From assembly GCF_000024205.1 (NCBI RefSeq), contig NC_013216.1, positions 1,116,001-1,180,000 on the forward strand: 64,000 nt of DNA. The letters are read 5' to 3'. The position numbers were made by a program, and so were the translations under genes. Source of the DNA: Desulfofarcimen acetoxidans DSM 771 (GTDB taxonomy: Bacteria; Bacillota; Desulfotomaculia; Desulfotomaculales; Desulfofarciminaceae). Under the pieces are notes generated by a model. The model saw nothing but the letters and a program-made list of their open reading frames with translations, ran no database searches and was not told the DNA's origin. Shown in pieces: positions 8,442-52,647 of the stretch (position 1 is the first letter of the stretch; each line of letters opens with the position of its first letter).

Positions 8442-9575
8442 TTAACGTCTAAAGTAGCCTTTAACGCATTTTGAATACTTTTGCTTACAGGGGTCCTCAA
8501 AGCATATGGAGTTCTCATGTTTGTGGGAATGTTTATGAGTTCCTTGAGAGTAGCTAGAGTCCTTGTATTTGCAGGGATCTTGGAATTTTTTCTGATTTTT
8601 ATGATAACCGTGATCTACATAATACTTGCAGTCTGTATACTGGCAGTAATTCTTATAATATCTGCACTTGTTGTGTTTGCAGGAATCGCTATAATATATG
8701 CATTCCTTTCTGTAAGATTTTTTCTTTTTGTGGGAATCATTAGAGCACTTGGAATCCTTGTGCTTGTGGGAGTCATTAGAGCACTTTGACTCTTTATGCT
8801 TGTGGGAATCATTAGAGCACTTGGAATCCTTGTGCTTGTGGGAATCATTAGAGCACTTTGACTCTTTATGCTTGTGGGAATCATTAGAGCACTTGGAATC
8901 CTTGTGCTTGTGGGAATCATTAGAGCACTTGGAATCCTTGTGTTTGCCGGAGTCTTTAGAACACTTGGAATCCTTGTGTTTGCCGGAGTCTTTAGAGCAC
9001 TTGGAATCCTTGTGCTTGTGGGAATCATTAGAGCACTTGGAATCCTTGTGCTTGTGGGAATCATTAGAGCACTTGGAATCCTTGTGCTTGCCGGAGTCTT
9101 TAGAGCACTTGGAATCCTTGTGCTTGCCGGAGTCTTTAGAACACTTGGAATCCTTGTGCTTGCCGGAGTCTTTAGAACACTTGGAATCCTTGTGCTTGCC
9201 GGAGTCTTTAGAGCACTTGGAATCCTTGTGCTTGCCGGAGTCCTTAGAACACTTGGAATCCTTGTGTTTGCCGGAGTCTTTAGAACACTTGGAATCCTTG
9301 TGCTTGTGGGAATCTTTAGAACACTTGCAATCCTCGTGCTTGTGAGAATCCTCAGAGCACTTATCTTTCTTTTTGCAGGAATCCTTATGGCATTTTGATT
9401 CTTTATTTTTTCCAGAATCCTTGCAGCATTCGGATTTCTTATGTTTTTTGTTGTTCTTTGAGTTTTTATTCTTATCAATAGATGAAATTACAACCGGACC
9501 CTGCTCCATTAGCATTTCAGAGATTCCCACTTCCGAAACTAAGGTTGCGCTGGCGTCTTTGTGTTTTATTTGCAT
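8442..9575 (-). CDS. Lys/His/Cys/Ser-rich tandem-repeat protein, possible CotG-like spore coat protein
   Basis: 377-aa protein with no recognisable enzyme domain. Residues 1-35 are ordinary (ISEMLMEQGPVVIS). Residues 72-287 are 18 tandem 12-residue units of the form KCSxDSxKHKDS, in two interleaved subtypes (KDSGKHKD and NDSHKHKD/E), preceded by about two degenerate units. Every unit contributes one Cys and one or two His. The C-terminal 90 residues are Tyr/Cys/His/Lys-rich (CRYYKNYCQYTDCKYY). The start ATG has AGGAGAG upstream. Composition recalls Bacillus CotG, whose Lys/Ser repeats are phosphorylated by CotH, but the regular Cys/His is unusual and suggests cross-linking or metal binding. 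Function is inference only. Confidence 0.75.
   Translation of the reverse strand: MQIKHKDASATLVSEVGISEMLMEQGPVVISSIDKNKNSKNNKKHKKSECCKDSGKNKESKCHKDSCKKKDKCSEDSHKHEDCKCSKDSHKHKDSKCSKDSGKHKDSKCSKDSGKHKDSKCSKDSGKHKDSKCSKDSGKHKDSKCSKDSGKHKDSKCSKDSGKHKDSKCSNDSHKHKDSKCSNDSHKHKDSKCSKDSGKHKDSKCSKDSGKHKDSKCSNDSHKHKDSKCSNDSHKHKESKCSNDSHKHKDSKCSNDSHKHKESKCSNDSHKHKDSKCSNDSHKKKKSYRKECIYYSDSCKHNKCRYYKNYCQYTDCKYYVDHGYHKNQKKFQDPCKYKDSSYSQGTHKHSHKHENSICFEDPCKQKYSKCVKGYFRR
8715..9362. repeat. 36-bp tandem repeat array (18 units) within the Cys/His-rich gene
   Basis: Eighteen 36-bp units without spacers encode the 12-residue repeat on the minus strand. On the plus strand each unit reads CTTGGAATCCTTGTGCTTG followed by a subtype-specific CCGGAGTC or TGGGAATC block. 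Eight units are of the CCGG subtype (six contiguous at about 9080-9290, two near 8945-8990) and the rest of the TGGGAATC subtype, showing block duplication. Neighbouring units differ by only a few bases, consistent with recent expansion. Confidence 0.95.
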
Positions 9576-41426: not shown

Positions 41427-41990
41427 TTAGCTGTCCTCTTCATATTCTGATTTATAACATTGAACCCTGATTTTTGTCTCACTAATAACTTCTGCATAGA
41501 TGCCAATCTCGATATCAACTTTAATAGTATTGTTGTTTTGAATGATTGCACCCTTGTATTGAGGTGTTTTGGTTAGCACAGCTCGGCCTTCCATATCATT
41601 TATAGCTGCCGGATCAAAGTCATCAATTTCCAAAGTTTCCGAAAATTCTACCACCTCGCGGGCTACTTCGGTATCTTTTCCGTTGTTAAAAGAAAACCAC
41701 ACATTTACATCAAAAGAACCGGAAACAATCACGATTGGCCTTTGGTGCTCAAATTTAACTGACACTGGATGAATAGTGAAAGCGGTAATTGAGGTACCTA
41801 AAATCTGGTTTGGTATAAATTCTTGATCGAATTCAATTTCACAACAATATAAGAAATTTTTTTGGGCCGAACCGCAAATTGCTTTGGTTATTATCTCACG
41901 CACGGATGATTTTTTGGTGCTGGTTATCTTTTTTCTCTCCGACCTGTTATCAGGTAGGGCAAAAGAATCTTCCATGGAAGTTCCTACCAC
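41427..41990 (-). CDS. outer spore coat protein CotE-like (paralogue 1)
   Basis: 187-aa CotE-family morphogenetic coat protein. The core is REIITKAICGSAQKNFLYCC..., ILGTSITAF, VSGSFDVNVWFSF...TEVAREVVEFSE, and IEIGIYAEVISETKIRV, ending in the acidic tail usual for CotE (SEYEEDS). GTG 41990 has AAAGGAGGG 6 bp upstream; the longer frame to 42032 runs through the SD and is rejected. CotE organises the outer coat under sigma-E control. A second CotE is at 43566. Confidence 0.88.
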   Translation of the reverse strand: MVGTSMEDSFALPDNRSERKKITSTKKSSVREIITKAICGSAQKNFLYCCEIEFDQEFIPNQILGTSITAFTIHPVSVKFEHQRPIVIVSGSFDVNVWFSFNNGKDTEVAREVVEFSETLEIDDFDPAAINDMEGRAVLTKTPQYKGAIIQNNNTIKVDIEIGIYAEVISETKIRVQCYKSEYEEDS

Positions 41991-42207
41991 ATTATTCCCT
42001 CCTTTCTGAAATTGTTTTGAATCCAGCAACAAGTCCTCCAGATAATCTTTATTAATGACAGGTCACCTCACATTTAATTTTATTCGTCGTTAAATTATTA
42101 TATGAATCGACTTAAATAAGTGTGAAAAGTTTTAGTAATAATCACACTCTTTAAATCTTGCAGCATATTATATTTTAGAGGAAGAGCGCGGAGGTGTGTG
42201 CCATAAT

Positions 42208-43224
42208 ATGGAGAAAGATAATATGAAATTAGTATTCAAGGATGTCTATGGCCTAGATATATATGAAGTTAATGTGCTTGCAGAACAAGGTAGAAAAAAA
42301 GTATGGGGATTGCAGACTTCGAAGGGGAAAAAGGTGTGGAAGAGAATCCCTTCTTCAAATGATAGAGCCGGCTTTATGATCAGAGTGATGGAGTATCTAA
42401 TTAGTAAAGGTATAAAAGTTCCCAGAGTAATAAAAACCCGTTTCAATAAAAATTATTATTTATCCTCTCAAGGGGAAATATATTTATTAACTGATTGGGT
42501 TGACGGTATAAAGCCAAATTTTAATGATCACCTGAAAGAAATTGTGATAACTCTGGCTAAATTTCATAAATATACTGCTAAAATAGAGGCTAACCCGTCC
42601 AGTGTTTTTGATTGGAGAGGTATTTGGCCTGCTACCTATGAAAAGAGACAAAAGAGGTTGTCTGAGATAAAACAAGCCCTGAGGGGAAACAATGAGGTAT
42701 CCGGAGGTTTATTAAAGAGCATCGATTATTTCCTAAAGAAATCTAAATCAGCAGCAAATTCACTGGAAAATTCTTATTACCATGTCTGGCTGCGAAGAAA
42801 GGGTGCAAAAACAGGGCTTTGTCACAGGGATTTTATTCCTCAGAATTTGAGTTTGACCGGTGCCGGTGAGCTCTGTATTTTTGATTTCGATACCTTGACT
42901 ATGGATATTCCCGCCATGGATTTGCGCAAATTAATTAATACCTGCTGCAAAGAGAAAGGCAAATGGGATGTGGAAATTGTTAAAAGTGTGGTCAACTTTT
43001 ATAATTCTGTTAACCCGTTGTTGGACAGGGAATGGGAGGTTGTTTTTATTGATTTAATGTTTCCTCATTTTTTTTACAGTCTTTTAAATAAATATTATAC
43101 AGAATCTGTGCAGGTTGCCAACTACAACATTGAGCGAATACATGAGACTATCTTATTTGAGAAATCTAAAAAAGATATGTGGAAAGATTTTCAGGATATA
43201 ATGGGAGAACGGGGGGAGTATTAA
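42208..43224 (+). CDS. CotS-family spore coat kinase-like protein
   Basis: 338-aa APH-fold CotS relative, third in the window. Landmarks are LCHRDFIPQNLSL (catalytic loop) and IFDFDTLTMDIPAMDLRKLIN (metal site), with the family N-lobe KKVWGLQTSKGKKVWKRI. ATG 42208 is used (GGAGGTG upstream at 42190-42196); GTG 42196 overlaps the SD. It is flanked by two cotE genes and the whole block is enclosed by inverted copies of a dispersed repeat. Confidence 0.88.
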   Translation: MEKDNMKLVFKDVYGLDIYEVNVLAEQGRKKVWGLQTSKGKKVWKRIPSSNDRAGFMIRVMEYLISKGIKVPRVIKTRFNKNYYLSSQGEIYLLTDWVDGIKPNFNDHLKEIVITLAKFHKYTAKIEANPSSVFDWRGIWPATYEKRQKRLSEIKQALRGNNEVSGGLLKSIDYFLKKSKSAANSLENSYYHVWLRRKGAKTGLCHRDFIPQNLSLTGAGELCIFDFDTLTMDIPAMDLRKLINTCCKEKGKWDVEIVKSVVNFYNSVNPLLDREWEVVFIDLMFPHFFYSLLNKYYTESVQVANYNIERIHETILFEKSKKDMWKDFQDIMGERGEY

Positions 43225-43267
43225 ATAAAAATCCCCCTTTTTATACTCCGGAAAATTATGCTTATAA

Positions 43268-43402
43268 TGGATTTGTGGATAAGTTACTGTACAATGAAGT
43301 ACAAATTTTTGTAGCATAAGCAAGGTTAGTATTGCATAATTTCCGGTGAGCGCAGGTGCTTGTGGTTGCTCGAAAGTCGCTTTAAGCGACTTTCTTGCTG
43401 TT
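43268..43402 (-). repeat. dispersed repeat, copy B (inverted)
   Basis: Reverse-complement relative of copy A with an extra segment of about 30 bp (43285-43318). Contains a perfect 23-bp palindrome at 43373-43395 (GAAAGTCGCTT/AAGCGACTTTC). A related hairpin fragment occurs at 13428-13468. Confidence 0.7.
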
Positions 43403-43565
43403 AGAATATCTTAAGGTTTATTTTACAAGTTAAGAATTGTACTAGATAGTAATTAACTCTCATATAATATGGCAATGGGATTATTATGTCTTGCAGGTGT
43501 ACAAAACCGCTAATGCTATTTTATTGAAAATGAATAATAAATACTTTTGCTTGGGAGGAATGGTA

Positions 43566-44099
43566 ATGGGTGACATGGTGCAAAACCAGAATAGAGATAT
43601 GTGGGGTTCTAAAGGCCCTTACCGGGAAATTATTACTAAAGCTGTTTGCGGTTCGGTGAGCAAAAATTTTGTTTATACCAAGTTTATAAAAATACAAGAA
43701 AAACGTATCCCAACCAAGGTTCTCGGTACCTCTATTCATAAATTTGAGCTCCAACCGGCAGTAATGGAAACAATTGATCATAATCAGACCGGTGTACTGA
43801 TCAGAGGTTCCTTTGAAGTAAATATCTGGTATTCCTTCGATCAAGGCAATTTCACAGATGTTATCAGAGAACCCGTTAAGCTGGCGGAAGTAATTCCACA
43901 AGATGATTTTGAGGGTCATGTCTCGAAAGAATTTTCTGTTCAGGTGATGTTAATTAAAAGTCCCCAGTGTAAATCTGCAGCTTTGCAAAGTGGTAATACT
44001 GTCCGGATAGAAATTGAATTGGGAGTATACGTAGAGGTGCTCGGTGAAACAAAGCTAAGAGTATTTGTTTATCAGGACAGTGATGAGGATGAGTCCTAG
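43566..44099 (+). CDS. outer spore coat protein CotE-like (paralogue 2)
   Basis: 177-aa CotE-family protein: YREIITKAVCGSVSKNFVY, VLGTSIHKFEL, IRGSFEVNIWYSF...TDVIREPVKLAE, VEIELGVYVEVLGETKLRVF and an acidic tail (DSDEDES). ATG 43566 lies 7 bp after GGGAGGA. Clearly a duplicate of the 41427 gene, but diverged; the duplicated residues support one ancestral coat organiser. Its stop is 6 bp from the convergent metallophosphoesterase. Confidence 0.88.
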   Translation: MGDMVQNQNRDMWGSKGPYREIITKAVCGSVSKNFVYTKFIKIQEKRIPTKVLGTSIHKFELQPAVMETIDHNQTGVLIRGSFEVNIWYSFDQGNFTDVIREPVKLAEVIPQDDFEGHVSKEFSVQVMLIKSPQCKSAALQSGNTVRIEIELGVYVEVLGETKLRVFVYQDSDEDES

Positions 44100-44105
44100 T
44101 GCAGG

Positions 44106-45023
44106 TCAATACCTCAATAAGTATCTGCGCACAAAACGTTGTTTAGTTGATAGATCAATTTTCCGTGATTTGCTGACCGAAAAAGAATCCAGCACATCAC
44201 CGTCTGGATCATAGACATGAATCTTAACAGTGTGACTTTCGATATCGACAACTACAAAATGATACGATTTAACCGGTCCAACTTTAACATTTTTAGTAGA
44301 GTAAGCTTCATCGTTGAGTTTTGCTCCACCACCACCGCAGATTATTTGGTAAATACTATTTTTAAATACAAATTCTTTACCGTCCATTTCTGTATTCATG
44401 GCTGAGTTAATATAACGACGACTGTAGTTGTGTTCATGTCCGTTAAAGACCAGATCAACATTATATTTATCAATAATTTTCCAAAATGTATTTCTATAGT
44501 AGGGATGATAGTCAAGGGAACTGCCCAGGTGTCGTCCTACCGGGTAAGATGGGTGATGGAAATATACAAAGAAGTGTTCTTTTCCTTCCCGCAGTGCATA
44601 TTGCAAATGTTTAATTAACCAATCACTTTGATTTCCGCTAATCTTGTGGCTGCGGTTTGAGTTGAGACAAAAAAAGCGGGAATTCCCATAGTCAAACATA
44701 TATGCTGTACGGTTAAAGCCGGAGGGCCCGTTATCAGGCAAGTGACTGAAAACCTCAGCAAAAGTTTCTTCATCCGGTTCATGATTGCCCATAGCCGGAA
44801 AAATCATAGATATTGGATAGAAATTTGTAACATTGTCACGCCAGTAATGCAAGTCATCATAACCGTCCCCATCTCCTTCTGTTAAGTCACCGGTAAACAA
44901 AAGGAATTCAGGTTGGGGATCTAAAGAAGTAACCCTATAGAGTATCTTTTCCAATATTTTTTTGTCGATTCCGTGGTGACTGCCCTGACTGTCACCAATA
45001 ACTACAAAACGAAAGTTTGACAT
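44106..45023 (-). CDS. calcineurin-like metallophosphoesterase
   Basis: 305-aa purple-acid-phosphatase-like enzyme without signal peptide. The metal-ligand motifs are complete: VVIGDSQGSHHG, LFTGDLTEGDGD, MGNHEPDEE, YFHHPSYPVGRH and FNGHEHNYSRR. It is the last gene of the minus-strand spore-glycan operon, 62 bp after the ATP-grasp stop, and may hydrolyse a phosphoester in that pathway. Substrate unknown. Confidence 0.88.
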   Translation of the reverse strand: MSNFRFVVIGDSQGSHHGIDKKILEKILYRVTSLDPQPEFLLFTGDLTEGDGDGYDDLHYWRDNVTNFYPISMIFPAMGNHEPDEETFAEVFSHLPDNGPSGFNRTAYMFDYGNSRFFCLNSNRSHKISGNQSDWLIKHLQYALREGKEHFFVYFHHPSYPVGRHLGSSLDYHPYYRNTFWKIIDKYNVDLVFNGHEHNYSRRYINSAMNTEMDGKEFVFKNSIYQIICGGGGAKLNDEAYSTKNVKVGPVKSYHFVVVDIESHTVKIHVYDPDGDVLDSFSVSKSRKIDLSTKQRFVRRYLLRY

Positions 45024-45085
45024 TGGTCAACTCTCCTTTAGCAAAGTAATAAATTAACTCATATCAAAAACCAGGCCATAAATAA

Positions 45086-46114
45086 TTAGCCCGGTTGAAA
45101 TATGCAGCAGCTTTTATTTTCCAATTGCTCAAGCTGTTCTGTAGGGACCAGGTAGTCTGCGTATTGCCTGATTACACTGCATTTTTTTATTTTAAACTCC
45201 GGAATTGCTTGATTCAGCAGTTCGGCTTTGAGCATAATTTCAGCCTCATTAACACCCAGTAGAAAGCGCATGCCGGTCGTGCTGCTGAAACGCGGGTTAA
45301 TCTCAAAGATGAATGGTTTGCCTTCTCGCAGTCTTAGTTGAAAATTACAGGGACCGTAGGGCTTCAAAACCGCTGCAACTTTTTGGCAGTAAGCAGTTAT
45401 CTCAGTATAACCAGTTGAGTCAGCAGAAACAGTCATGCCGTCATGTAAATATCTCTTTAAGGTAATACCGGAAAGAATTTTTCCGTTTTTACCCGCACAG
45501 ATGCCGGTGGTGTACTCGCCTTGATGATCAGGGAGGTATTGCTGGATAATCATATCCTTTTGTCCTTTGAGCAGTGTGCGCAGCCCGGTAAAATTCTCAA
45601 TTTTGCATAAACCTTTGGAGCCGGTTCCCCGCCGTGGCTTTATAATGACGGGAAAGTTTACTTTTTTTATAAAGGAGCAGAGTTGTTCAGCGTCCTCTGG
45701 AAAGCGTATGGTCAGAGGAAAATAAAAATTGTTTTCTTGTAAAAAACGAATGGTATACCATTTGTCGTCACAGGTATTCAATACTTCAGGAGAATTAGTA
45801 AAAATTTTTGCTTTGGTTTTAGCTTCAATTTCAGCTTTGTACTTACTGAAAAAATGCAATTCCTTAGAGGAGGCAATAAAAACTGCCTGAATATCCTCTT
45901 TGATTAAAATATCCAGTAATCGCTCCAGGTAAGCTGTTTCATATTGGGCTGCCGGGACTAAATAAGCACTGTGGGCCAGGTGTAAGCCCAGTGCTCTTGC
46001 TTCCATGTCACAAGCTACCAGTTTTAAATTCAGTTGAGAGGCTAACAGTGCTCGAATTACTGCGACTCCGTATAGAGAACCGGATCCAGTAATTAATACC
46101 TTAATTTTATCCAC
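45086..46114 (-). CDS. ATP-grasp carboxylate-amine ligase
   Basis: 342-aa ATP-grasp ligase (carbamoyl-phosphate-synthase-like). N-terminal nucleotide-fold segment KVLITGSGSLYGVAVIRALL; ATP-binding strand FPVIIKPRRGTGSKGLCKI; metal-binding EINPRFSSTTGMRFLLG. Members join an amino group to a carboxylate (amino acids to sugars or peptides). The start GTG overlaps the WbqC stop by one base (TAGTG), so translation is coupled. A Cys-containing tail (CCIFQPG) follows. Likely attaches an amino acid to an amino-sugar made by the operon (inference). Confidence 0.85.
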   Translation of the reverse strand: MDKIKVLITGSGSLYGVAVIRALLASQLNLKLVACDMEARALGLHLAHSAYLVPAAQYETAYLERLLDILIKEDIQAVFIASSKELHFFSKYKAEIEAKTKAKIFTNSPEVLNTCDDKWYTIRFLQENNFYFPLTIRFPEDAEQLCSFIKKVNFPVIIKPRRGTGSKGLCKIENFTGLRTLLKGQKDMIIQQYLPDHQGEYTTGICAGKNGKILSGITLKRYLHDGMTVSADSTGYTEITAYCQKVAAVLKPYGPCNFQLRLREGKPFIFEINPRFSSTTGMRFLLGVNEAEIMLKAELLNQAIPEFKIKKCSVIRQYADYLVPTEQLEQLENKSCCIFQPG

Positions 46115-46797
46115 TAAATCACCTGTTTGACTAAATATTTTTTACTTTCCGGTCCGCAGTTAAAAAGCAGGTCAACTACGGACAGGTTGGGTATGAAATT
46201 ATTCCATAACTGGGGGTACTCAGAGATTTTATAGGACTGGTATACCAGTCTTATATTATTTTCGGTAAATTCAAGTTCATCATTGTAAGCACGGGCTCCT
46301 GTTCCCGACAAGTATGTGCTGGCTCCAAAGTGACGGCATATATTAATAATCCTGGTGCCTTTTTTTCCGTCAAGCGCAGGTATTTGAGAAGATCGCACTA
46401 CAGGCGTGGCAATTTCCAAAATATCTTTAATAACCGAAAGCAAGCTTAAATTTAATTCGACCAGATTTGTCCCGGGATGGGCAAATACCGGTGCAAATTT
46501 ATCCCTGTATTCTTTCCAGAAGGGACTGCGGGAGTAGCAGGATGTTAGGGAATTCCAGTGTTTTTGATGCCAATTTTGGCCATTATGAATGATTAGATCC
46601 TTAATTAGGACCTCTTTGTTAGCCAATGGCACACTAAGCAATCGTACACCTTCCGGAGCCTTGATTTTATTTTTGCTGGTTATGGCCCTTTTGGAATGAA
46701 GCACATCGTCAAGAAAAACAAAAAGATCGCAGGAAAGCATTTTATGAAAATATCCTGGCCAGGGCAGATAATTCGGCTGATGGATAGCTATAATCAA
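46114..46797 (-). CDS. WbqC family protein
   Basis: 227-aa WbqC-like protein: MIIAIHQPNYLPWPGYFHKM is the family signature, followed by FLDDVLHSKRAITSKNKIK. WbqC proteins occur in O-antigen and glycan clusters, often next to aminotransferases and acyltransferases, and are thought to act on amino-sugars, but the reaction is not settled. TTG 46797 has AAAGGGGGT 9 bp upstream, 16 bp after the DegT stop; operon member. Confidence 0.88.
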   Translation of the reverse strand: MIIAIHQPNYLPWPGYFHKMLSCDLFVFLDDVLHSKRAITSKNKIKAPEGVRLLSVPLANKEVLIKDLIIHNGQNWHQKHWNSLTSCYSRSPFWKEYRDKFAPVFAHPGTNLVELNLSLLSVIKDILEIATPVVRSSQIPALDGKKGTRIINICRHFGASTYLSGTGARAYNDELEFTENNIRLVYQSYKISEYPQLWNNFIPNLSVVDLLFNCGPESKKYLVKQVI

Positions 46798-46813
46798 CCG
46801 TTTGCGACCCCCT

Positions 46814-47899
46814 TTAATCGGTGAAACTGTTAATTGTATCAGCCACTGTTTTAAGATCAGCTATATTAAGACCTGGATGCACTGGTATAGAAATACAGGA
46901 TGCAGCCAGCTTTTCTGCTACCGGCCAGGTTCCTTTACTGCAGTCCAGGTTCCGGTAACAGGGTTGAGACGGTATAGTCATGGGATAATGTATACCATAG
47001 CCGATTTGATTATCTGTCAGCCAGGCAGCCAGAGCGTCCCGGCAGTCCGTGGTAAGCGTATACTGGTGATAAGCATGGCTTCTGTCCGGTGGTGCCTGTG
47101 GTTTTTTCACCAAAGGGTTATTTATATGGGTATTGTAGAATTGAGCGTTTTGGTTTCTTTTTTGATTAAATGATGTTAATTTTTTTAATTGAGCCAGGCC
47201 TATGGCGGCATGAATATCGGTCATGCGGTAGTTGTAGCCAACTACTTCATGGTAATAACGTCGCTGTTGCCCCTGATTGACCAGCAGGCGTACCTTCTCT
47301 GCCAGAGCACTATCTCCGGTAACAACCATACCGCCTTCCCCGGAAGTTATGTTTTTGGTAGGATAAAAACTAAAAGCCGCCGCATGGCCGAAAGTACCGG
47401 CATAGCGTTCTTTATAGAGAGCACCGTGTGCTTGCGCACAGTCTTCAATAAGGAGCAGATTGTTCTTTTGAGCTAGTTGGCAAATTTCTTCCATATCAGC
47501 CGGCAGTCCGAAGAGATGTACTACCAGCACTGCTTTAGCTTCCGGGTGATTTTTTATGGCTTTTTCCAAGCCGGTAGGTGAGAGATTAAATGTTATTGGA
47601 TCAATATCAACAAAAATGGGAACCGCACCTGTAAATAAAAGAGCATTTGAAGATGCTATAAATGAAAAAGGAGTGGTAAGGACCTTATCTCCCGGGCCTA
47701 TTTCCAATGCGGACATAATCACCTGCAGGGCTGTTGTGCCGGAAGATGTAGCCAATGCATAAGGCGTATTGATATAAGCTTGGAATGATTTTTCAAATTC
47801 CAGTACATATTTACCGGCCGCCAGCATACCGCTGGCCATTACTTCTTTTACTCCATCAAACTCTTCTTGACCCAAAAGCGGTTTAGCGTGTGGAATCAA
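46814..47899 (-). CDS. DegT/DnrJ/EryC1 sugar aminotransferase
   Basis: 361-aa PLP-dependent aminotransferase of the DegT family. The internal-aldimine Lys is in FSFYPTKNITSGEGGMVV, and the PLP-binding block is IEDCAQAHGALYK. It transfers an amino group to a keto-sugar nucleotide. TTG 47899 follows GGAGGAG. The Gfo/Idh dehydrogenase at the operon front could supply the keto-sugar, a pairing known from bacterial amino-sugar pathways. Confidence 0.93.
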   Translation of the reverse strand: MIPHAKPLLGQEEFDGVKEVMASGMLAAGKYVLEFEKSFQAYINTPYALATSSGTTALQVIMSALEIGPGDKVLTTPFSFIASSNALLFTGAVPIFVDIDPITFNLSPTGLEKAIKNHPEAKAVLVVHLFGLPADMEEICQLAQKNNLLLIEDCAQAHGALYKERYAGTFGHAAAFSFYPTKNITSGEGGMVVTGDSALAEKVRLLVNQGQQRRYYHEVVGYNYRMTDIHAAIGLAQLKKLTSFNQKRNQNAQFYNTHINNPLVKKPQAPPDRSHAYHQYTLTTDCRDALAAWLTDNQIGYGIHYPMTIPSQPCYRNLDCSKGTWPVAEKLAASCISIPVHPGLNIADLKTVADTINSFTD

Positions 47900-47914
47900 T
47901 TAAAATGCTCCTCC

Positions 47915-48742
47915 TTAAAAACCCTGTAATTTTTGAGACATTTTTATATTAACTTTGTGTCCTGTCCTGATGCCGATAAAATGACCTTTTATAGGACTGC
48001 CCAGGGTTGCCAGATCACCCATTAAATCTAATAGCTTATGCCTGGCCGGTTCATTTCCCCATTTGAGGTTTATTTCTGACTGACCGATAACCAGGCAGTC
48101 TTTAATACTTTGACCGATTAGAGCGGCCACCAGGTCATATTCAAAATCCATTATATATGACCTAGCCGGTGCCAGTTGTTCGGCAAATTGCCGGTTATTC
48201 AGGCGAAAATGTGCTGCTTGTGTGGGGACCTGGCGTCCTGGATAGTCGAGCAGGTAAGTTACCTTTAATTCAGTGGAAGGCAGTGCCAGTAAGATAGATT
48301 CATACTCCCTTCCGTTATATCTAAAGGAGTCAAAAACCCACTGCGGTTGATTAACAACAAAATGTTTTTTGGGTTTGTCTTGCTCAATAATTTTAGCCTG
48401 CTGCAGGGCTTCAACAAAGTTAAGGCTGCTGAAATTGCTTACAACCGGGATATGAGGTCCGTCCAGACAAACCTTGATATTGTCAATACCCAGGCCAATT
48501 ACCGCAGCTAGGAGATGTTCGGTATGTTCAATGCGCAGTTCATTTTTGACCAGAGAAGTCCAACGCGAATCAGTCCGGGCATATTGAGTACAGCACTCAA
48601 TTCTTGGGCTGCCGGGCAAATCCTGCCTGATAAAAACTATGCCTGTGCCGGGTAGTGCCGGCATAAAGGTTACGGTACTGGGTACTCTGCCGTCAATGCT
48701 TATTCCTGTACACCTGGCTGAGCAGCTAATGGTTTTTTGCAT
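47915..48742 (-). CDS. LpxC-type UDP-3-O-acyl-GlcNAc deacetylase homologue
   Basis: 275-aa protein of the LpxC family, normally the committed step of lipid A synthesis in Gram-negatives. All catalytic features are kept: RIEHTEHLLAAVIGLGIDN with the general-base Glu and zinc His (about 75/76), ARHKLLDLMGDLATLG with the second zinc His (about 235) and Asp (about 239), and IRTGHKVN with the base His (about 262). ATG 48742 overlaps the cgeB stop as TGATG. No other lipid A genes are present. In this context it probably deacetylates an N-acylated sugar of a spore-surface glycan. Confidence 0.92.
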   Translation of the reverse strand: MQKTISCSARCTGISIDGRVPSTVTFMPALPGTGIVFIRQDLPGSPRIECCTQYARTDSRWTSLVKNELRIEHTEHLLAAVIGLGIDNIKVCLDGPHIPVVSNFSSLNFVEALQQAKIIEQDKPKKHFVVNQPQWVFDSFRYNGREYESILLALPSTELKVTYLLDYPGRQVPTQAAHFRLNNRQFAEQLAPARSYIMDFEYDLVAALIGQSIKDCLVIGQSEINLKWGNEPARHKLLDLMGDLATLGSPIKGHFIGIRTGHKVNIKMSQKLQGF

Positions 48743-49695
48743 CAACCTATTACTCTGAGTATATCTGCAGCCCGGTGTTCATAAGTGTGTTTGGCGTAAA
48801 CCTCAGCCTGACCGGTTGTTGCAATTTTTATTCTCTCAGCCTCATGTGCCAGATAATAGTTCACCTTTTCCAGGGTTTCACCGGCAGACCTGGTGACTTC
48901 CAGGTGTTTACCTGGCGTAAATGTCTCCAGGACAGCGGGTGTTGTCGGGCTGAGAAGAAAACCTCTGGCACCTAAAACTTCAAAGGTCCGGGCAGTCAAT
49001 TCCCTGTTAGTATTTTGTAAGCCCAGTATAATCTTGGCGCTGCTGTAGACATAGTTAGTCTCCTCGTAAGGCAATTTCCCCATTAGAGGGCCCGTGTCAA
49101 CCTTGAAGCCGACTATACTCGGGTCTACTTTATCCCACCTGCTGCCCCAAATCTTTATGTTATAACCTTTTTCTAACAGTGGTTGCAAGAGAATTTGCAC
49201 ACTATTTTTACGGTAAGAATTCCAGGTTACACCGGCTGTAGCTACTATTGCTATGTCACAATGGTAAGCTTCTTGCCGCATGTGCGGTCTGTGAAACTCC
49301 GGGTTGCAGGCCCAAGGCAAATAGTGAGCCGTATACCCTCTTTTGCGATAGAAGGGGAGGGAACCCCTGTTTATGGTAAAAATATAGTTCTGTCCGGTAG
49401 CCTCAATATAAGGCAATGACCACTCATTGGTCCAACGAGGATCCTCGGTAGCCCAGTAAGCCTGCTTGACTTTGTGTTTCTCAGCCAGATTTTTTAATAT
49501 AGCCAGCTTGGCTTTTGTGTGAATCTTTGTCCAGCCGGTGGTAAATATTAAATCCGGGCGGTATTCATCAATCAATTGATCCAGTTCTTCTTCGATAATA
49601 TCCCGGAGGATTTTTACCTGGCAGCCTTGTTTTTGCAGGCCAAACGGCAATCCCAGCAAATACTGGCAATCTGATTCAATAAACAGGATTTTCAT
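48742..49695 (-). CDS. CgeB-like spore maturation glycosyltransferase
   Basis: 317-aa GT-B glycosyltransferase of the CgeB family. The N-terminal half carries IFTTGWTKIHTKAKL and AYWATEDPRWTNEWSLPYIE; the C-terminal half has LGLQNTNRELTARTFEVLGARGF, the donor-site and CgeB signature. In Bacillus subtilis CgeB is made under sigma-K/GerE and shapes the outermost spore surface. ATG 49695 after AGGGTGA. Placement inside the amino-sugar operon marks the product as a spore-surface glycan. Confidence 0.9.
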   Translation of the reverse strand: MKILFIESDCQYLLGLPFGLQKQGCQVKILRDIIEEELDQLIDEYRPDLIFTTGWTKIHTKAKLAILKNLAEKHKVKQAYWATEDPRWTNEWSLPYIEATGQNYIFTINRGSLPFYRKRGYTAHYLPWACNPEFHRPHMRQEAYHCDIAIVATAGVTWNSYRKNSVQILLQPLLEKGYNIKIWGSRWDKVDPSIVGFKVDTGPLMGKLPYEETNYVYSSAKIILGLQNTNRELTARTFEVLGARGFLLSPTTPAVLETFTPGKHLEVTRSAGETLEKVNYYLAHEAERIKIATTGQAEVYAKHTYEHRAADILRVIG

Positions 49696-49719
49696 AAATT
49701 CACCCTGACCATGATTATT

Positions 49720-50694
49720 TTAGTTAAGATCATAGCGGTAGGTTTCCCGCAGAACACCACGTCCGCCAAAACCTTCTTTAAAGCGAAACAGACCTTTATT
49801 GACGTATTTACCTTTATTTTCGGTAGAAATGCCCCAGTCCAGATAGTGATAGCCTTTTTTTCTCCCCCAATTGATCAATTCGTAAAAAAGCAAATTTAAC
49901 GGCCGCAATTGCTGGTATTTTTCATCATGTGCTATATAAAAGCAATTGATTACACGGTTGTTGAGTAAAAAAATCAATACGCCGCCGATTATTTTTTCTT
50001 CATAATATGCAGCAAAAAGTTTAATGCCCTGAGGGTACCTGTCTTTTAAAACATAAATTTCTTCTAACGTATGAGTTGGATGAGCTTGATGTCGTGCTTG
50101 CAGGTTATTGGAGAGGATATCCCAGTACTCCTTAAACTCCTGGCTTTCTTTTATATATACGCCTAGTTTGGCAGCTTTGCGTATATTTCTTTGCGCATTT
50201 TCTCCTGCGGCAGACCTGGTATCATCCAACAGGTGTAGGGCAGTAGCCAGCTCCGTGCTGCTGGCATAAAAACCGTAGTAACGTAAAGCGAAATCCAACT
50301 CATCACAGTTTCTACAGTGATAAATACGGGGAACAAGCTTAATTTCAATTTGTTTAAAACCGTTATCCTGACAGTGTTTAATCAGCAGAGGGATAAGAGT
50401 CATTGCATTATTTGTCTTAAACTTTCGATGGATTACTATTCCCCCGTGCGAGGCCCCGGGGTAAGAGGAAAAAACAGTCTTTTCACCTGCCCTTTGCTGT
50501 GCGGCGGGTATAACCGCCAAGAGTTTATCATGGGAATCATAAACTAATAAGGAGCAATCATTAAATCTTCCCGCTGGGTGATAGTTTAAAAAGTTGCGTT
50601 CTTGCATAAAAGTACCGTTAGCGGAATTGCGCACGAAAGCATCCCACTGTGAGTATTCTTCTTCGGTATAATTCTTTAGTTTCACTGTTATCAC
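49720..50694 (-). CDS. GNAT/FemAB-type acyltransferase
   Basis: 324-aa GNAT-fold protein of the FemAB-like (Acetyltransf_6) group: FMQERNFLNYHPAGRFND near the N-terminus, RNIRKAAKLGVYIKES in the middle, and LFYELINWGRKKGYHYLDWG with NKGLFRFKEGFGG at the C-terminus, as in lipid II-alanine or exopolysaccharide-linked transferases. In this operon it may acylate the amino-sugar or add an amino acid. GTG 50694 is 6 bp after the oxidoreductase stop. Confidence 0.85.
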   Translation of the reverse strand: MITVKLKNYTEEEYSQWDAFVRNSANGTFMQERNFLNYHPAGRFNDCSLLVYDSHDKLLAVIPAAQQRAGEKTVFSSYPGASHGGIVIHRKFKTNNAMTLIPLLIKHCQDNGFKQIEIKLVPRIYHCRNCDELDFALRYYGFYASSTELATALHLLDDTRSAAGENAQRNIRKAAKLGVYIKESQEFKEYWDILSNNLQARHQAHPTHTLEEIYVLKDRYPQGIKLFAAYYEEKIIGGVLIFLLNNRVINCFYIAHDEKYQQLRPLNLLFYELINWGRKKGYHYLDWGISTENKGKYVNKGLFRFKEGFGGRGVLRETYRYDLN

Positions 50695-50700
50695 CGGTCT

Positions 50701-51654
50701 TTACCTGAAATGTAGTCTTGCACTATTGCTAAATAAGGATTGTTCAATCAAATCCATTACTTTCATAACCCAGGCCATATCACGCACACCAGTTTTGGGT
50801 TCATCGCCTGTTTGTAAACAGTCAACAAAATGCTTGCACTGACTGGTTAAGGGTGGAGTTCGTTCCAGTTTTGGCATAGTTATATCGCCGTTATAAGGAA
50901 TGATCTGCAGTTTAAAATCATCTCTTGTATCATCGAGTGCTGCCATTGTCCTGCCTCCGGCAACAATAATTTGTCTTCTTTTTAAGGGATACATCCAATT
51001 GCAGTGTAATTTTACAAATAAATTATTGGCAAAACCCATATTAATGGCAACTATATCATGAATACCGTCTTGCAGATAACTCTCCCCGTGAGCTGATACC
51101 CAGCGAGGTTCTTGATTGACTAAATACCTGACAATGGAGAGATCGTGTACCGCTAAATCCCAGAGAACGCTGACATCACTTCGAATCTTTCCCAGATTTG
51201 CCCGTTCCAATAAAATATATCTCAGTTCACCCAGTATGCCTTGGTTGATATAGTCCTGTAGTTTTACAACAGCAGGGTGATATTCCATAATGTGGCCAGC
51301 CATTAACAGGGTATTGTTTTTTTGTGACAGTTTTATTAACCTGTCCGTGTCGATATAGGAGAGAGTTATTGGTTTTTCCACCAGAACTGCTTTATTACGC
51401 ATTAAAAAGTTGGCGGCAATAGCAAAATGTGATTGAGGAGGGGTAGCAATCACCGCGCCTGATACTTGTTCATCATCCAGTAAATCCTGGTAATTAGTGG
51501 TTGTTCTGATTTGGGGATAATTTGAGCTCAATTCTTCCAAGATATTTTCATTTTGATCGCAAACATGAAGTATATTTGCTTCCGGGATTTCTGCAAAAGT
51601 CTTTAAATAGTTTAATCCCCAGGCACCACAGCCGATTAAGCCAATTCCTATCAT
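50701..51654 (-). CDS. Gfo/Idh/MocA family oxidoreductase
   Basis: 317-aa NAD(P)-dependent sugar dehydrogenase. Rossmann motif GIGLIGCGAWGLNYLKTF; catalytic EKPITLSYID; C-terminal substrate domain with DLAVHDLSIVRYL. ATG 51654 follows GAGGGGATAAGTGA and is the first gene of an eight-gene minus-strand operon. Likely oxidises a UDP-sugar at C3, giving the keto-group for the DegT aminotransferase, as in UDP-2,3-diamino-sugar pathways. Exact sugar unknown. Confidence 0.9.
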   Translation of the reverse strand: MIGIGLIGCGAWGLNYLKTFAEIPEANILHVCDQNENILEELSSNYPQIRTTTNYQDLLDDEQVSGAVIATPPQSHFAIAANFLMRNKAVLVEKPITLSYIDTDRLIKLSQKNNTLLMAGHIMEYHPAVVKLQDYINQGILGELRYILLERANLGKIRSDVSVLWDLAVHDLSIVRYLVNQEPRWVSAHGESYLQDGIHDIVAINMGFANNLFVKLHCNWMYPLKRRQIIVAGGRTMAALDDTRDDFKLQIIPYNGDITMPKLERTPPLTSQCKHFVDCLQTGDEPKTGVRDMAWVMKVMDLIEQSLFSNSARLHFR

Positions 51655-51771
51655 TTCACTTATCCCCTCTGAAACAAAAAATGGTAGACCTTGCTAGAGC
51701 AGGTTTTAGACTTAAACTAATGTATGCAAAAGATTCCTTAACTGTGCATGGGGTGCAAAGGAAATTGCATA

Positions 51772-52647
51772 CTAGTCTGGAGTTATTATAGAAAAACTAG
51801 TAATGGATGAAAATGGAATAGAGATTATGTTTAACTGATCTGTAATTAAAACGATGAAATCTTCGTTGACTCCGGTCATGATTCCGTCAAAAAATACTGA
51901 GAAGGGTGTGTTTACTATCATCCTTTTATAATAGGACTTTCTTAGTTGATATAGGAGGCTGGCTGTTGCTTCATTATTATTGGTATTTGTCTGGGAAGAA
52001 TTTGTTTGCTGTGGTTGCTCCTGTGCATTTGAGACTTGCTCCGGGTTGTTATCAATATTTATAACCGGACAAGGTAAAGTTTTGACTATTTCTCTGTGTC
52101 CTCTTGTTTTTGCGTCATTAGGTGTTCTTTCAGTTAGGGGGTTGGGATTTGACGCTGGCAAAGTTGATTTGTTTATAACTGTTCCGGATAGAGAAGTTTT
52201 ATTTGTATGATTATTATTTTTATCGGCAGCAATTTTTTTTAAGTGGCTTGGATTAGTGTTATTGCCGGTATTTTTAATAGTTACGGGCAATACTTGGTTC
52301 TCCTTGACTGCCTGGCTGCCGGTATTAGCATATTGGCTCAGTAAAGTTAAAGGCTCTGTTTGTCTCGTACCGGTATTAACAGTTTCGGTCGGTTTCTTTT
52401 TAATATCCGCTGGCTCATTGCCGTTGGCATCAGGTTGTTCTGTTAAGGCTTTATCTGCCTCATTTTGTTCTGTTACAGTTGGTATTTTACTGTAAGACAG
52501 GTTGTTGTCCAATTCCAGCCATAGATGATCTTCTTTTTCCGTCATAACAGGTCCACAGGCTGAACTGCGGGTAGCTTTAACAAGTTGACTGATGGAACCT
52601 TTTGCCAGCAAACTCACCGGCAAGCCGGATTTTCTTTTTTCAGGCAA
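51772..52647 (-). CDS. low-complexity protein with C-terminal Sm-like (DUF2642-like) domain
   Basis: 291-aa protein. The N-terminal 60 residues have AKGSISQLVKATRSSACGPV; a disordered Thr/Asn/Gln/Pro-rich region follows (about 65-230); the final 55 residues (LLYQLRKSYYKRMIVNTPF...GVNEDFIVLITDQLNIISIPFSSI) form a small beta-barrel pattern like DUF2642/YrfX-type spore proteins. TTG 52647 is preceded by a strong AAAGGAGGTGA. It leads a run of four further small Sm-like genes. Probably a spore-surface structural protein; inferred from context and pattern. Confidence 0.65.
   Translation of the reverse strand: MPEKRKSGLPVSLLAKGSISQLVKATRSSACGPVMTEKEDHLWLELDNNLSYSKIPTVTEQNEADKALTEQPDANGNEPADIKKKPTETVNTGTRQTEPLTLLSQYANTGSQAVKENQVLPVTIKNTGNNTNPSHLKKIAADKNNNHTNKTSLSGTVINKSTLPASNPNPLTERTPNDAKTRGHREIVKTLPCPVINIDNNPEQVSNAQEQPQQTNSSQTNTNNNEATASLLYQLRKSYYKRMIVNTPFSVFFDGIMTGVNEDFIVLITDQLNIISIPFSSITSFSIITPD

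Follow-up and report, generated by a model that had tools for sequence, protein, structure and literature searches.

An apparently mobile gene module with an LpxC-family deacetylase and a sigma-K type promoter motif, predicted to supply the spore surface with a decorated diamino sugar

In bacillithiol and mycothiol synthesis (BshB-BshC and MshB-MshC), an amino sugar is deacetylated and an amino acid is then ligated to the freed amine; BshC joins cysteine to the amino sugar of bacillithiol. The sps and cge genes of Bacillus subtilis are mother-cell spore-surface glycan genes that include DegT and CgeB-type families and are not known to include an LpxC, WbqC, or FemX-like member. Gram-negative bacteria with 2,3-diamino-2,3-dideoxyglucose (GlcN3N) in their lipid A use GnnA and GnnB to make UDP-GlcNAc3N for an LpxC-containing lipid A pathway (PMC5644692). 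In Desulfofarcimen acetoxidans, lpxC is the sole lpx gene listed in a 2024 study, which suggests that it and an LpxC homolog in Peptococcaceae bacterium DCMF could be left over from a paralogous lpxC2 region and allows that they may have novel roles (PMC11448272). Here we describe the gene module around this lone lpxC in a 64,000-nucleotide stretch of the D. acetoxidans DSM 771 genome (contig NC_013216.1, positions 1,116,001 to 1,180,000; hereafter the window).

With a probability of roughly 60%, judged from sequence comparison, this is a mobile seven-gene module of spore-formers that would be transcribed late in the mother cell and whose product would be a decorated diamino sugar of the spore surface. 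Our analysis established the gene set, its co-occurrence, an intact LpxC active site, a separate LpxC clade, and a promoter motif. The genes are tightly spaced (6, 24, −4, 15, 16, and −1 bp from Gfo/Idh to ATP-grasp) and consist of:

50701..51654, minus strand: Gfo/Idh dehydrogenase, first module gene (Gfo/Idh, 1e-21)
49720..50694, minus strand: FemX-like double-GNAT transferase (Acetyltransf_6/FemAB, 2e-11)
48742..49695, minus strand: CgeB-type glycosyltransferase (Glyco_trans_1_2 PF13524, 1.9e-29; DUF3880 PF12996, 5.5e-14)
47915..48745, minus strand: LpxC-family zinc deacetylase (PF03331, 1.4e-63)
46814..47899, minus strand: DegT/DnrJ pyridoxal phosphate (PLP) aminotransferase (PF01041, 1e-115)
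46114..46797, minus strand: WbqC-family protein (PF08889, 7e-76)
45086..46114, minus strand: ATP-grasp carboxylate-amine ligase of the PRK12767 type, closing the conserved module (NF009402, 2.3e-92, over cut-off)
51718..51746, minus strand: putative promoter of the sigma-K type, CACA-N16-CATACATTA, located 64 bp upstream of the Gfo/Idh start

The initial annotation had drawn a unit of eight minus-strand genes (44106–51654), ending in a metallophosphoesterase. All eight open reading frames (ORFs) and their family matches were recovered, but the eight-gene unit was rejected because the metallophosphoesterase has no homolog in the module loci of relatives, leaving seven conserved genes. It also lies 62 bp from ATP-grasp, a looser spacing than the rest, and weakly matches a plant diphosphonucleotide phosphatase (4e-8).

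Using the window proteins as queries, we compared 19 loci, the window included. The seven families occur together in 17 of them: beyond the window, the full module is found at 10 Desulfotomaculia loci, in five Negativicutes genomes (Sporomusa acidovorans and four relatives), and in one Clostridiales metagenome-assembled genome (MAG). A search of relatives for the same gene order, proposed in the initial annotation, recovered the seven-gene set in Desulfotomaculia without the eighth gene, and extended it to Negativicutes and, in partial form, to Bacillales. Counted by orthologs, Gfo/Idh is present at 17/19 loci and CgeB and ATP-grasp at 18/19 each. The gene order is rearranged at two loci (L027 and L028), the former with a second WbqC. 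Neobacillus cucumis (L048) carries five module genes, adjoined by an unlike Gfo/Idh and DegT pair as substitutes, and in another Bacillales genome (G255, L205), LpxC and WbqC are accompanied by further aminosugar genes. These loci are phylogenetically related, so the counts overstate their independence. Among 113 Desulfotomaculia genomes, module-type LpxC and the FemX-like gene are found in the identical 11, with a wide score gap; identical sets would arise by chance with a probability of ~2e-15 for independent genomes, an assumption that does not hold here. The module also occurs in Negativicutes and Bacillales and appears to be horizontally mobile. Transfer between lineages is suggested by the LpxC tree, in which the Neobacillus protein falls beside that of the window and the Sporomusa protein beside that of another Desulfotomaculia family. 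A twelfth Desulfotomaculia genome (G056) holds only fragments of LpxC and ATP-grasp (L029:10018-10416 and L012), apparently the remnants of a decayed module copy.

The LpxC active site is intact. Numbered from the TTG start of the ORF, its zinc and catalytic residues are E76, H77, H236, K237, D240, D244, and H263; from the ATG one codon later (48742), the start favored by relatives, they read E75/H76, H235, D239, and H262, as the initial annotation had them. All seven positions (E. coli E78, H79, H238, K239, D242, D246, and H265) are kept in 19/19 module LpxC proteins, which differ from other LpxC by T191S, A52C, and T76H. Lipid A LpxC deacetylates 3-O-(hydroxyacyl)-UDP-GlcNAc, whose acyl chain it accommodates in a hydrophobic passage. 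In the acyl-passage region of the module proteins, Thr191 (E. coli numbering) is replaced by Ser and G205-L206 are missing, again in 19/19, suggesting a substrate other than the lipid A precursor. A broken LpxC in G255 was considered and rejected, as the stop precedes the start codon and the ORF is open.

A profile built from module LpxC scores 326–478 bits on module copies versus at most 208 bits on the other Bacillota LpxC seen, and the window LpxC falls under the TIGR00325 cut-off (156.6 versus 187.25 bits). In a tree of 87 LpxC sequences (quick method, midpoint root), the 19 module proteins lie on one side of a branch with a support of 100 in the Shimodaira-Hasegawa-like approximate likelihood-ratio test (SH-aLRT), apart from the lipid A LpxC of Negativicutes, other Bacillota, Bacteroidota, cyanobacteria, and E. 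coli. The three phylum samplings for LpxC drew largely the same genomes, and their counts are not independent. Both kinds of LpxC occur together in five Negativicutes genomes, and Sporomusa acidovorans retains its lipid A LpxC besides the module LpxC. In the D. acetoxidans genome, LpxB is absent and the search for LpxD returned only generic hexapeptide matches. With LpxB and LpxD searched but not LpxA, we rejected a lipid A role for the window LpxC on the missing LpxB, the generic LpxD matches, the separate clade, and the score below TIGR00325. These results, and the singleton status of lpxC in PMC11448272, support the initial proposal that this LpxC works outside lipid A synthesis. The module LpxC likely strips a 2-N-acetyl group.

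Upstream of the module lies a motif of the sigma-K type. At 18 loci, we scanned the 200 bp preceding the first gene of the module, taking 188 upstream regions of other genes at the same loci as controls, with a pattern whose letters follow the sigma-K consensus. MACM-N16-NATANNNTA precedes 9/18 modules and 0/188 control regions (0.2 expected in shuffles), and CAC-N17-NATANNNTA, a form refined after viewing the sequences, precedes 15 of the 18 and none of the 188 (0.12 expected in shuffles). Read as sigma-K elements, the putative promoter in the window is GCACA-N15-GCATACATTA, in agreement with the elements and spacing described for sigma-K promoters (5-nt and 10-nt elements with a gap of 14–16; PMC517825). 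A sigma-E promoter before the module was rejected for want of a consistent site. In the window, the CAC-N17-NATANNNTA type motif also stands before CotE (64 bp) and before a Cys/Lys-rich repeat protein (46 bp), and in the nearest relative (L024) it occurs at three sites only: before CotE, CotS, and the module. The module is apparently transcribed late in sporulation. The features around it in the window, all outside the conserved set, are:

41427-42032: CotE homolog (7.9e-24)
42096..42124, minus strand: same sigma-K type motif, internal control, 64 bp before the CotE homolog at 41427-42032
42196-43224: CotS-family gene (6e-69)
43491-44099: second CotE homolog (1.6e-26)
44106..45023, minus strand: metallophosphoesterase, co-directional with the module (Metallophos, 1e-15)
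51772..52647, minus strand: Thr/Asn/Ser-rich protein directly upstream of the module (11% T, 11% N, 9% S)

The two CotE homologs flank the CotS-family gene (41427-44099), confirming the neighbors reported initially, and the trio is kept beside the module in L024. We dropped this linkage as a main argument because it is kept only in that nearest relative. SpoIVA was found in 17/19 module host genomes. Beside LpxC, the G255 copy has SpoVAD, CotZ, CotO, and a collagen-like gene; the Neobacillus locus contains a short ORF for a collagen-like protein and an ATP-grasp gene of the YheC/D type. The promoter motif shared by modules and coat genes, the coat-gene neighbors, and the spore-forming hosts together support the spore-surface role advanced in the initial annotation, and we regard such a use as computationally well supported. 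The G255 region itself (L205:3314-17247) encodes LpxC, WbqC, a methyltransferase, DegT, Gfo/Idh, a long collagen-like GPV-repeat protein, CotZ, and CotO, and appears to form a separate spore-surface glycan locus. In the window, positions 8442-9575 (minus strand) encode the long Cys/His/Lys/Ser tandem-repeat protein (KHKDSKCSKDSG units, no Pfam match) that has the motif 46 bp upstream; it is probably an unrecognized spore coat protein. The Thr/Asn/Ser-rich protein has no Pfam match and a short homolog at the same place in L024 only; it is a possible local acceptor of the sugar.

We infer the reactions, substrates, acceptor, and expression of the module from these comparisons and from structure models, each built from five sequences. 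Gfo/Idh would begin by oxidizing C3 of UDP-N-acetylglucosamine (UDP-GlcNAc), a likely GnnA-like step: its best NCBIfam model is UDP-GlcNAc 3-dehydrogenase (NF040723, 7.6e-50, below cut-off), with an EKP motif at 93, and the Neobacillus substitute, unlike the window enzyme, has the same best model. DegT would then transaminate the product to UDP-GlcNAc3N, a likely GnnB-like step. Its closest solved structure is QdtB, a 3-aminotransferase (1.6e-79), it has the PLP lysine motif FSFYPTK, and its best NCBIfam model is PseC, a C4 aminotransferase, below cut-off. The best matches point to the C3 route of 3-dehydrogenase and 3-aminotransferase, with model scores below curated cut-offs. The FemX-like enzyme would next place an aminoacyl group from aminoacyl-tRNA on an amine, probably N3, and LpxC would take off the 2-N-acetyl group, the reaction that its lipid A counterpart performs on 3-acylated UDP-GlcNAc. 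WbqC and ATP-grasp could add further amides once N2 is free, or assemble the acyl group. Finally, CgeB, which has no solved relative by sequence, would likely pass the finished sugar to a spore-surface acceptor. The general order given in the initial annotation (oxidation, transamination, deacetylation, amide formation) is supported; a role for WbqC as an amide ligase, based on a predicted model, is our addition.

Three module proteins are candidates for amide formation. The transferase had been labeled GNAT/FemAB; the sequence match stands, and its AlphaFold model (predicted local distance difference test, pLDDT, 84) refines the label to a FemX-type double GNAT that is probably aminoacyl-tRNA-dependent. 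Foldseek ranks FemX first (2.2e-16, template modeling score 0.73), with Sba18/Sbb17 at ~1e-15 and acyl-CoA-dependent double GNATs also among the matches. The sequence matches Sbb17 (8e-6), including the motif GLFRFKEGFGG; the protein combines the predicted double GNAT fold with a C-terminal lysine motif, the latter aligned by sequence to Sbb17. It likely aminoacylates a sugar amine with aminoacyl-tRNA as donor, much as the related Orf11 converts streptothrisamine with Gly-tRNA (PMC12945691). A further FemX-like relative lies within an FdtA/DegT/flippase cluster (G048, L220:4637-9620), FdtA and DegT being 3-amino-sugar genes, which opens the possibility that such transferases also decorate 3-amino sugars of other polysaccharides; this G048 gene was rejected as a module member, as its FdtA/DegT cluster has no LpxC. 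For WbqC (AlphaFold pLDDT 80), VIA-align places the model closest to BshC (Z 13.2, 218 residues, 3.4 Å) and class I lysyl-tRNA synthetase (Z 12.3, 171 residues), ligases of the HUP type, with the third match at only 8.2. Foldseek alone returned nothing below E 0.001 for WbqC, and sequence searches gave no solved relative and no profile match to BshC. From its model, WbqC is likely an amide-forming ligase. ATP-grasp has a solved relative, 2pn1. More tentatively, the module may be a new spore-surface pathway in which LpxC was recruited for a 3-amino UDP-sugar, the unrelated FemX-like, BshC-like WbqC, and ATP-grasp enzymes add amino acids, and WbqC proteins in general are amino-acid or acyl ligases of surface sugars.

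Other explanations have to be weighed against the spore-surface diamino sugar. Quite improbable is a vestigial LpxC, left from an ancestral outer membrane as an lpxC2 remnant without a pathway of its own, an origin considered possible for D. acetoxidans, with novel roles also allowed, in PMC11448272. The host class is related to the diderm Negativicutes, and the organism, called Gram-positive in the initial annotation, belongs to a monoderm class yet is reported there to stain Gram-negative. Against a vestige stand the active site intact in 19/19, strict co-occurrence with the module genes, the separate clade, the Bacillales copies, and the common promoter motif; from sequence, this evidence argues against the remnant reading. 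Hardly more probable is a soluble small molecule made at sporulation, an aminoacylated amino sugar like bacillithiol or streptothricin, with no surface glycan. FemX-like relatives do occur in streptothricin-type pathways (PMC12945691), the WbqC model resembles BshC, and BshC itself has no match in the D. acetoxidans genome, but the module contains a CgeB glycosyltransferase and no exporter, and lies among coat genes under a coat-type promoter motif.

A spore-surface sugar made by other chemistry is unlikely, though it deserves more weight than either of these: DegT could act at C4, LpxC on a transferred glycan, or the GNAT with acyl-CoA. PseC as best model for DegT and the acyl-CoA-dependent double GNATs in the fold search would fit, whereas QdtB as closest solved relative, best models of both Gfo/Idh types that point to C3, and FemX and Sba18/Sbb17 at the head of the fold search speak for the route through UDP-GlcNAc3N. 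Several observations weigh against the aminoacylated diamino sugar of the spore surface that we prefer. The loci are not independent; the CAC-N17-NATANNNTA form was fitted with the sequences in view, the stricter form giving 9/18 versus 0/188; and beyond the nearest relative, CotE and CotS are not kept beside the module. Two MAG hosts, G029 (84% complete) and G115, have no SpoIVA match, and the link between module and SpoIVA in Negativicutes is weak (5/5 versus 26/57, p 0.05). The likeness of WbqC to BshC comes from one predicted model without sequence support, and the Gfo/Idh match to UDP-GlcNAc 3-dehydrogenase lies under the cut-off of that model.

Monoderm spore-formers carry an orphan LpxC that has so far been read as a possible relic of a lost outer membrane; the module supplies it with a testable candidate function, and an lpxC gene alone is no marker of an outer membrane. 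The uncharacterized WbqC family gains a concrete hypothesis, and spores that possibly bear aminoacylated diamino sugars become a target for direct chemical analysis.

The initial annotation considered the pathway undescribed as a unit. Our literature search, which covered few subscription journals, found little on WbqC or on LpxC in spore-formers and no paper describing the module, its promoter, or its function; a 2024 study had already pointed out the lone LpxC, without assigning it a function (PMC11448272). The lpxC2 region of Bacillota treated there includes the same lone D. acetoxidans lpxC and is a paralogous region distinct from the main lipopolysaccharide cluster, but the main text names neither a gene set nor a promoter or function; the supplement could already cover some of the module neighborhood. 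The GnnA/GnnB lipid A branch follows the same logic as the module, with a Gfo/Idh-type dehydrogenase first, then an aminotransferase, and then LpxC (PMC5644692). The module differs in having no LpxB or convincing LpxD, in a FemX-like enzyme in place of LpxA, and in the addition of WbqC, ATP-grasp, CgeB, and a sporulation-type promoter motif. Bacillithiol and mycothiol synthesis resembles it through the BshC-like fold predicted for WbqC, but the module deacetylase is of the LpxC family, the context is a nucleotide sugar, and WbqC and BshC have no sequence similarity. FemX, Sba18/Sbb17, and Orf11 share the double GNAT fold and the C-terminal FK-GFGG motif with the module transferase, which has ~15% identity to them and sits within a proposed spore-surface sugar module; FemX, acting on a UDP-sugar peptide, and Orf11, acting on an amino sugar (PMC12945691), are precedents for the aminoacylation proposed here.

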